Assembly (NCBI RefSeq): GCF_000015665.1
Contig: NC_008817.1
Location: 682,001 to 746,000 of the forward strand
From: Prochlorococcus marinus str. MIT 9515
Lineage (GTDB): Bacteria > Cyanobacteriota > Cyanobacteriia > PCC-6307 > Cyanobiaceae
DNA length: 64,000 bases
Direction of reading: 5' to 3'
A program made the position numbers and the translations under genes. A model generated the notes under the pieces. It did no database searches. It saw nothing but the letters and a program-made list of their open reading frames with translations, and was not told the origin of the DNA. Position 1 is the first letter of the stretch; each line of letters begins with the position of its first letter. Positions 13,990-15,032 of the stretch are shown here, piece after piece.

Positions 13990-14310
13990 TTAAGTTAAAT
14001 TTTTTGTGAGTTGAAAATAGCCGTTCTTATGCAAAGAATATTTATCAAACCAAAGGTTTAGTAAATTATCAAGCCCGATTCCCGATAGATTTTTTTTATT
14101 CAGAATTTTATAGTCTGATAAGGCTAATAATAAGTAAGGAAAGATCATATCAGAAACTCCTGTTGGAAGTTTGTTTAAGGGGACACAGTGACCTTTTTCC
14201 CAAATTATTTGCATATCTTGAGTAAACAAAGAGCTCCAATTATTAAAATCACAATATAATTTTTCTGGAGGTAAAAGATTAATCTTTAATATCTGCGTCG
14301 GATAATTCAT
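13990..14310 (-). CDS. Hypothetical protein
   Basis: 106 aa, mixed alpha/beta composition with two Cys (C20, C42) and a leucine-rich centre (MIFPYLLLALSDYKIL). No signal peptide or known motif. It converges with the 84-aa gene on the other strand. Composition and length look like a real but lineage-restricted protein. Confidence 0.55.
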   Translation of the reverse strand: MNYPTQILKINLLPPEKLYCDFNNWSSLFTQDMQIIWEKGHCVPLNKLPTGVSDMIFPYLLLALSDYKILNKKNLSGIGLDNLLNLWFDKYSLHKNGYFQLTKNLT

Positions 14311-14437
14311 ATTGGAAGGATGTAGAAATAAAGATTATAAAAACTTCTGAATATTTTACCTATTGTTAGAGAATAAGTATTAAATATTCGTCCTTAGAAT
14401 TGAAGAATTTACATTAAAAATATAACTAAAAGTGAAG

Positions 14438-14452
14438 TACAGTGCAACACTT
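14438..14452 (+). repeat. 15-bp inverted repeat, left copy
   Basis: TACAGTGCAACACTT at 14438-14452 is the exact reverse complement of 14863-14877. Each copy contains an interrupted palindrome, AGTG-3-CACT. It lies 3 nt beyond the stop codon of the RHH-like gene. Confidence 0.7.
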
Positions 14453-14455
14453 TGT

Positions 14456-14836
14456 CTATGATTCACTTGTTTTCATTCTTTCTTGGAATTGAAGAAACAT
14501 GATGAATTTAGAGTAAATTTCATTATCTAGAGTCTGATCCTTCAATTCTTGAGAATTTAAATTATTCTCTTTTAGTAGTTTATTTTTGTACTTATTATCA
14601 AATTCGTTATTAACACGCTCAAACCTGTCTTGATTTATTTTTTTCCAATTATTATTTTTCTCATCAATATAAATAACAGGCGATATATTGAAAAGACCTC
14701 TTTTATATAATGCTTCTTCAACTAAAATATTAATTATTTTTGAATAACTTAGATTATTATCAACACTCAATTTATTGATTATTTCTAATACATCGTTTCT
14801 TGGTATGAAACCTACTCTTCTTTTTTTTGTGGGCAT
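14456..14836 (-). CDS. Ribbon-helix-helix-like (CopG/Arc-type) DNA-binding protein
   Basis: 126 aa from the ATG at 14836; an upstream in-frame start at 14920 would run through the inverted repeat and is less likely. The N-terminus (KKRRVGFIPRNDVLEII, then SYSKIINILVEEAL) has the beta-strand, helix, turn, helix pattern of RHH regulators. The remainder is highly charged, probably coiled. The gene is bracketed by exact 15-bp inverted repeats, one 27 nt before the start and one just after the stop, which suggests autoregulation or a mobile cassette. The RHH call is by pattern only. Confidence 0.6.
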   Translation of the reverse strand: MPTKKRRVGFIPRNDVLEIINKLSVDNNLSYSKIINILVEEALYKRGLFNISPVIYIDEKNNNWKKINQDRFERVNNEFDNKYKNKLLKENNLNSQELKDQTLDNEIYSKFIMFLQFQERMKTSES

Positions 14837-14862
14837 ATTAAAGTTCAGCACTAAACTGTAAT

Positions 14863-14877
14863 AAGTGTTGCACTGTA
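14863..14877 (-). repeat. 15-bp inverted repeat, right copy (possible operator)
   Basis: AAGTGTTGCACTGTA, reverse complement of 14438-14452. It lies upstream of the RHH-like gene start, where an autoregulatory operator would be expected, and it also overlaps the possible start codons of the plus-strand microprotein. Confidence 0.7.
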
Positions 14878-15032
14878 TTCGAAGCAAGTCAATAATTCCA
14901 CTTTTTATTCTACCTTTCACTATTTTATTCGGCCCATTTGGGTATCTTTATTACAAGTCAAAGGATGTACTGTCTTTAGTTGAAGGAGAGCAGTTAGATG
15001 CTCCTAAAAAGCAAATAGAAGGAGATTATTAA
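14868..15032 (+). CDS. Putative small membrane protein
   Basis: 54 aa from TTG 14868 (GTG 14865 also possible). One hydrophobic helix (IIPLFILPFTILFGPFGYLYY) is followed by an acidic/polar tail with SLVEGEQLDAPKKQ. The start region coincides with the right copy of the inverted repeat. The upstream part may therefore have been replaced if the RHH segment was inserted, or the gene may be divergently controlled from the same site. No family assigned. Confidence 0.42.
   Translation: MHCIRSKSIIPLFILPFTILFGPFGYLYYKSKDVLSLVEGEQLDAPKKQIEGDY

Follow-up and report, generated by a model that had tools for sequence, protein, structure and literature searches.

The window analysed here is a stretch of 64,000 nucleotides from the genome of Prochlorococcus marinus str. 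MIT 9515. It contains a small gene on the reverse strand, named P1, that encodes a ribbon-helix-helix-like (RHH-like) regulator. P1 is bracketed by two copies of a short sequence in opposite orientations (Table 1). The preliminary description of this DNA had reported an exact 15-bp inverted repeat just outside both ends of the gene, and we find the same: TACAGTGCAACACTT behind the gene is the exact reverse complement of the stretch in front of it, 26 bp lie between the promoter-side copy and the ATG, and 3 bp between the stop codon and the other copy. This is the sole exact inverted 15-mer pair in the 64-kb window whose starts lie no more than 500 bp apart, and none of 40 dinucleotide shuffles of the window gave an exact inverted 15-mer pair with at least five G+C.

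Table 1. Features of the P1 locus, in positions of the window.
Feature	Position	Strand	Remarks
Conserved downstream gene	13990..14310	-	106 aa (NLLPPEKLYCDF...); 145 bp past the stop of the RHH-like gene, same strand
Conserved ~34-bp block behind the P1 stop	14419..14452	-	From an alignment of 30 loci; column counts from 74 of 85 distinct P1 genes
Candidate 3' operator	14438..14452	+	Starts 3 bp past the stop codon; core AGTGCAACACT (14441-14451) in the opposite orientation to site 1
RHH-like regulator gene P1	14456..14836	-	126 aa; ATG 14836, TAG 14456; protein MPTKKRRVGFIPR...
P1 protein parts	14456..14836	-	RHH-like domain at the N terminus, middle of low confidence, conserved helix at the C terminus
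Candidate promoter operator, site 2	14842..14852	-	AGTGCTGAACT; one core mismatch; 22 bp from site 1
Candidate promoter operator, site 1	14863..14877	-	TACAGTGCAACACTT; core AGTGCAACACT at 14864-14874
Divergent small membrane-protein ORF	14865..15032	+	Homologous part from ~14895; relatives compared by eye
TTGACTT element upstream of site 1	14886..14892	-	From alignments; possibly the -35 element of the RHH promoter

Comparison across Prochlorococcus shows that the conserved unit is an 11-bp core, AGTGYNRCACT, and not all 15 bp; the exact 15-bp match in the window is thus partly luck. The complete genome (1,704,176 bp, one contig) was searched for the 15-mer as well, and its only two exact copies are those at P1. 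Occurrence of the repeats at many unrelated positions, a possibility raised in the preliminary description, was not found: besides the two exact copies the genome has three with two mismatches. One of these ends 32 bp upstream of a paralogous RHH-like gene (P2) and the other two lie inside open reading frames of 463 and 102 aa. Within the genus, 166 of 200 genomes contain the 15-mer with at most one mismatch, mostly in one or two copies; among genomes of at least 90% completeness and no more than 5% contamination, all 66 contain it. Where the surroundings of a copy were inspected, it stood in front of P1 or P2 or, in some species, behind P1. Whole genomes contain four to nine exact cores (seven genomes), zero to five of them away from P1 and P2, and this remainder is about the level of a reversed control pattern (zero to four per genome in the same seven). 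At least 120 viral-contig stretches in a very large viral collection contain the 15-mer; they are taken as chance matches in a collection of that size. A tblastn search of a phage collection matched no relatives of the P1 protein.

On weak matches, we take P1 as likely to encode an RHH protein. The window protein matched none of the curated RHH models, and NCBIfam gave no match; the RHH_5 matches of P2 and of a third paralogue, P3 (E 0.15 and 0.033), are both below cut-off. A profile of P1 orthologues searched against solved proteins found Arc (1b28) as its best match, weakly (E 0.79); a second profile (A4) matched no RHH chain. Foldseek returned 39 matches to the P1 model, mostly Arc, CopG, AmrZ, PutA, NikR, MatP and antitoxins, which we take to be RHH proteins, all with E of 0.9 or higher. 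An RHH domain is expected to open with a short strand that leads into two helices over ~45 residues. The AlphaFold2 monomer (mean pLDDT 68.9, pTM 0.34) has high-pLDDT helices at residues 13-27 and 31-45. Residues 1-12 are extended without a strand in this monomer, and the strand pairs only in a dimer. A C-terminal helix spans residues 105-124 and contains residues that are invariant in 29 aligned sequences; it could let dimers pair up.

Three RHH-like paralogues are present in each of six genomes checked, including that of the window. P2 lies at G000:836,211 in the window's genome (G000), ~140 kb from P1, and P3 is at G000:C1:769164-769526 (L102, L390). Over the matched part P1 is 38% identical to P2 and 46% identical to P3. 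A fourth match in the window's genome (E 0.42) has an internal stop. A further RHH-like paralogue stands in tandem behind P2 in one genome (L296:1832-2212, genome G024), with degenerate operator-like sequences before the gene and ~20 bp past its stop (AGTGTTACATT). In a sample of 121 genomes from across the family, 10 had a relative at E 1e-4 or better, and five of these 10 fall outside the genus. When 145 genomes of the class were searched with a single sequence, six matched, all in the window's family; a P1/P2/P3 profile recovered those six and seven more, weakly (E 5e-4 to 7e-3). A scan of named genomes kept 80 of 154 relative-encoding loci, 79 from Prochlorococcus and one from Synechococcaceae. 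Upstream of P3 a core with one mismatch is present in six of six loci, and behind P3 the 3' site is present in none of the six. The P3 leader TTGACAGAAGTGTTACAAT, with its 1-mismatch core, is conserved. The five relatives outside the genus (L138-L142) lack the 3' site by eye, and in L138 an exact core precedes the gene. In four of these five, one neighbouring gene is similar to a neighbour of P3. Because the P3 neighbourhood thus resembles that of the single RHH-like gene in other genera, the comparison suggests that P3 is the ancestral copy.

These data bear on the proposal, made in the preliminary description, that the repeats are the terminal repeats of a regulatory cassette of ~440 bp. A mobile cassette would be in keeping with the exact inverted repeats at the two ends, with the paralogues in all six genomes and with the further tandem copy in G024. 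The surroundings of P1 are fixed, however, which argues against mobility: on each side the neighbour is the same in all 12 loci viewed on both sides, the downstream neighbour is kept in 30 of 30, and no further exact 15-mer exists in the genome. It is the core and not the full repeat that is conserved, the protein has no relative in the phage collection searched, and the promoter end has a second, tandem site that a terminal repeat does not need. We regard a mobile cassette as extremely improbable.

The promoter side of P1 and P2 is covered by a pair of candidate operators. Two locus sets were used. The P1 set combines the best 30 of one search with the 80 loci kept by the named-genome scan, made distinct (85 genes), and the P2 set combines the best 30 of another search, six loci from the six-genome check and 18 diverged loci picked by hand; the counts for the 85 P1 genes and the diverged P2 loci omit L321 and L308, in which the gene was not parsed. 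Of the 84 distinct P1 genes with 5' sequence, 83 have an exact core no more than 80 bp upstream. Site 1 of P2 matches the core exactly in 35 of 36 loci and in 17 of 18 diverged loci, and the remaining two have one mismatch together with an exact second site. All 54 P2 loci therefore have at least one exact 5' site. In the set of 30 P1 and 36 P2 loci the 5' count accepts either site; site 1 of L124 has one mismatch. The first base of the core is 37-49 bp before the start codon in the loci listed. Site 2, with zero to two mismatches, lies exactly 22 bp nearer the start in every locus counted, namely 29 P1 loci that have 5' sequence, 36 P2 loci and 18 diverged P2 loci. Its sequence is AGTGCTGAACT in many P1 loci and AGTGTSACACT in many P2 loci, and it is often degenerate. 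The TTGACTT element is kept farther upstream in both P1 and P2; in the window it also falls in the leader of a divergent gene. The -10 box may be TATAGT, or AACACT at 17 bp from TTGACT.

That divergent gene is a feature of both paralogues. P1 and P2 each have an ORF of ~50 aa with a hydrophobic start, which begins 65-79 bp upstream if an ATG or GTG is taken as its start; this places the promoter-side sites between two divergent genes. Divergent ORFs of 35-90 aa are found in 46 of 48 P1, 31 of 31 P2 and one of six P3 loci; 48 of the 50 P1 loci and 31 of the 32 P2 loci submitted were counted, and taking the first match gave L009 and L027 a wrong frame. Gathered by length and position, the partners of 40-60 aa comprise 72 distinct sequences for P1 and 45 for P2, and hhalign did not show the two families to be homologous (probability 2.8). 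The corresponding ORF in the window has no ATG where its relatives start and ends before their conserved C-terminal ..DLEDLFI; to the eye, the window's genome seems to have a degraded version.

Behind the stop codon, P1 has a conserved block of ~34 bp that is related in all 30 aligned orthologues. Within it GTG/GT half-sites recur at steps of ~10 bp, and near-invariant columns occur also outside a GTGTTG-like motif (74 of 85 genes); the invariance of GTGTTG itself is partly by construction, as those 74 rows were picked by a GTGTTG-like motif inside the block. Among the 85 distinct P1 genes, a core within 40 bp of the stop is exact in 22, has at most one mismatch in 65 and at most two in 84, and 20 genes have the block without a site at one mismatch or fewer. 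A site with one mismatch is expected by chance in the 3' interval at 0.007 per P1 locus (11 such sites were found elsewhere). In P2 the 3' core is exact in 33 of 36 loci and within one mismatch in 35 of 36, as it is in 18 of 18 diverged loci, or 53 of 54 together; it follows the stop almost immediately, at -2 to +6 bp (52 genes), and no 1-mismatch sites were found elsewhere in P2 loci. The exception in the 36-locus set is P2 of the window's own genome (L090), whose 3' site CGTGTCACACC has two mismatches. The coding regions and the rest of the flanks contained no exact core in 30 P1 and 36 P2 loci, and none occurs within the 85 distinct P1 genes. Among 19 diverse P2 representatives, 18 have GTGTNACAC within 25 bp of the stop, with variable flanking bases. 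The representative profiles were anchored on GCAACACT at the 5' side and on GTGTNACAC or GTGTTG-like motifs at the 3' side, and they missed the 3' site of L296 (one mismatch). Locus comparison thus shows one layout of candidate operators common to P1 and P2, namely a pair of sites at the promoter and one site behind the stop.

The orientation of the 3' copy admits a promoter reading, in which it would drive or control an antisense RNA into the RHH-like gene, the promoter-like TATAGT of the 5' copy serving as an inverted -10 box. The P1 3' copy is indeed inverted, several species keep CAGTGCAACACTT, and the -10-like hexamer in the window is TACAGT. The TA..T part is not kept, however: other P1 copies read AACAGT or CACAGT, and the bases beside the P2 palindrome are variable. 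An antisense promoter is for these reasons quite unlikely. A pairing of the inverted repeats in the mRNA, which would join its 5' and 3' untranslated ends, would account for the exact complementarity of the repeats, seen in the window and at many P2 loci. The centre of P2 5' site 2 may be any of G, C, T and A, but that of the 3' site is always C or T, so pairing of the centres is not kept. The P1 3' block by itself has no conserved RNA fold (14 sequences), and 5' site 1, which probably overlaps the promoter, may be missing from the transcript. Pairing within the mRNA is, in our view, very improbable.

The 3' copy could also be the operator of the next gene, P1 then repressing itself and, separately, the gene of 101-124 aa downstream. 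That gene, recognised by an NLLPP motif, is present on the same strand in 30 of 30 P1 loci and begins 128-150 bp past the stop in the six P1 loci measured; its 106-aa product in the window had no match in Pfam or NCBIfam. On the other side of P1, a gene of 98 aa is the same in all 12 loci inspected for it. P2, however, keeps its 3' site while the gene that follows it differs, is distant or lies on the opposite strand: a convergent tRNA (in the window's genome), a gene of 128-129 aa ~400 bp off, or opposite-strand genes. No common sequence is conserved beside the P2 3' site in 18 representatives. Because P2 keeps the site whatever gene follows, the site belongs to the RHH-like gene, and we consider a separate operator for the downstream gene unlikely. 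We infer from these comparisons that the 3' site is real, that it belongs to P1 and P2, and that it predates the split of the sampled species.

As to the tRNA itself, its convergent gene (L090:1890-1963) closely abuts the weak P2 3' site in the window's genome, and tRNA-like sequence was seen by eye behind P2 in L290, L291, L292 and L294 as well. A search of five loci against Rfam gave nothing above threshold except the tRNA adjoining P2.

The reading that we favour, with some reserve, is that P1 is an RHH-like autorepressor with an operator at its promoter and an auxiliary operator at its own 3' end, the latter acting by looping or as a roadblock. RHH dimers would bind the AGTGYNRCACT sites, as the conserved palindromes around the gene suggest, and dimers on the promoter pair would shut off both divergent promoters. 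The 3' operator would be an auxiliary site for the same protein that strengthens autorepression; what conservation best supports for it is a use by this protein family in controlling its own gene. P1 and P2 have in common the operator core and a strand, KR-V/I-GF-I/L-P, that probably faces the DNA, and to judge from this shared sequence they are likely to regulate each other; the protein that binds the sites could be P2, P3 or another factor.

Two routes are available to the auxiliary site. By looping, the 3' and promoter operators would be bridged through the conserved C-terminal helix, closing a loop of ~400 bp, similar to the distance between lac O1 and O2. As a roadblock, the bound 3' operator would stop RNA polymerase at the end of the gene. 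Site 1 and the 3' site are 405-460 bp apart in P1 and 411-417 bp apart in P2, a distance that, together with the C-terminal helix, fits looping; the helical phase between the 5' and 3' sites is not constant, and for that reason a phase-critical loop is not favoured. Roadblocking fits the position of the 3' operator, since a polymerase halted by a protein there would, at the distances usual for roadblocks, come to rest before the stop codon was transcribed. The spacing from the codons of the C-terminal helix to the operator (SD 0.84 in 82 P1 genes and 0.68 in 52 P2 genes) is tighter than that from the stop codon to the operator (SD 1.78 and 1.66); this comparison omits L033, L358, L378, L297 and L298. 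The stop-to-operator spacing is therefore not specially selected, contrary to a strict roadblock at the stop codon. Some auxiliary role in autoregulation seems to us somewhat probable, and we divide that expectation roughly evenly between looping and roadblock. The two-site autoregulatory loop of the preliminary description is well supported as an architecture, with the core kept at both ends of two paralogous RHH-like genes; looping itself gains no support from the helical phase, which is not constant over the varying distances.

A more elaborate form of the roadblock is a gate at the stop codon, in which abundant repressor would halt polymerase before the stop and tmRNA would clear the stop-less transcripts. 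tmRNA is present in the window's genome, and we put this idea forward tentatively, as doubtful. If it were true, the gene would control itself at its start and again at its very end, in a layout kept through duplication across Prochlorococcus.

Prochlorococcus has a streamlined genome with few known regulators. Here a paired module for autoregulation, present throughout the genus sample, places a candidate operator behind the regulator's own stop, a layout that is unusual and easy to test. Either dedicated looping or roadblocking at the end of the gene would thereby prove to be a normal means of autoregulation, and AGTGYNRCACT would be a candidate operator for regulators without names and for the divergent membrane miniproteins. 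In the parts of the literature that were available to us, we found no report of such a two-ended module under Prochlorococcus RHH proteins, RHH looping, operators behind stop codons, or LacI-type autoregulation with tmRNA, nor, among the matches listed, under roadblock autoregulation. The parts are of known kinds; what is new is the two-ended layout kept in two paralogues.

Repressors of the Arc, CopG and MetJ type are RHH proteins that bind short palindromic or tandem operators. P1 is like them in its RHH-like domain and in its short palindromic or tandem candidate operators, and it differs in that it falls below curated RHH cut-offs, has an extra C-terminal helix and has candidate operators at both ends of its gene. 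In cyanobacteria, the parts of the published account that we draw on describe TrcR (all0854) of Anabaena sp. PCC 7120 as a proven RHH autorepressor whose operator covers its own -10 box (protected from -53 to -28), with a small gene across the promoter region, asr0855, that is up 9-fold in a trcR mutant (PMC10272220). From the gene names we infer that asr0855 is divergent from all0854. P1 and TrcR, as far as that account goes, are alike in being cyanobacterial RHH-like proteins with an operator, a candidate one for P1, just upstream of the start codon at a similar distance, and the position of asr0855 across the operator region resembles the miniprotein-RHH pairs of P1 and P2. With TrcR as a cyanobacterial precedent, autorepression at the promoter would be the straightforward part of the proposal. 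The operator of TrcR, given as ATACTACACTTGTATTAC, differs from the P1/P2 core, and the sections consulted mention no operator behind the TrcR gene, whereas P1 and P2 have a candidate one (PMC10272220). A sequence link to the TrcR lineage was looked for through the searches of 145 genomes of the class, in which the matches outside the clear relatives were the seven weak ones. TrcR is credited with many targets, whereas a P1/P2 regulon was sought only as exact cores in seven genomes. Self-limitation through a site other than a regulator's own promoter has a proven case in LacI at O3, for which the excerpted source describes blocked transcription of the repressor's own gene and a truncated, SsrA-tagged product, and lac loops, like the loop considered for P1, join separated operators (PMC3711431). 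LacI, on the same partial source, is a tetramer and not an RHH protein, and O3 belongs to the lac control region. Unlike O3, the 3' site of P1 and P2 appears to be dedicated to the regulator gene, the promoter of which is also covered by candidate operators.
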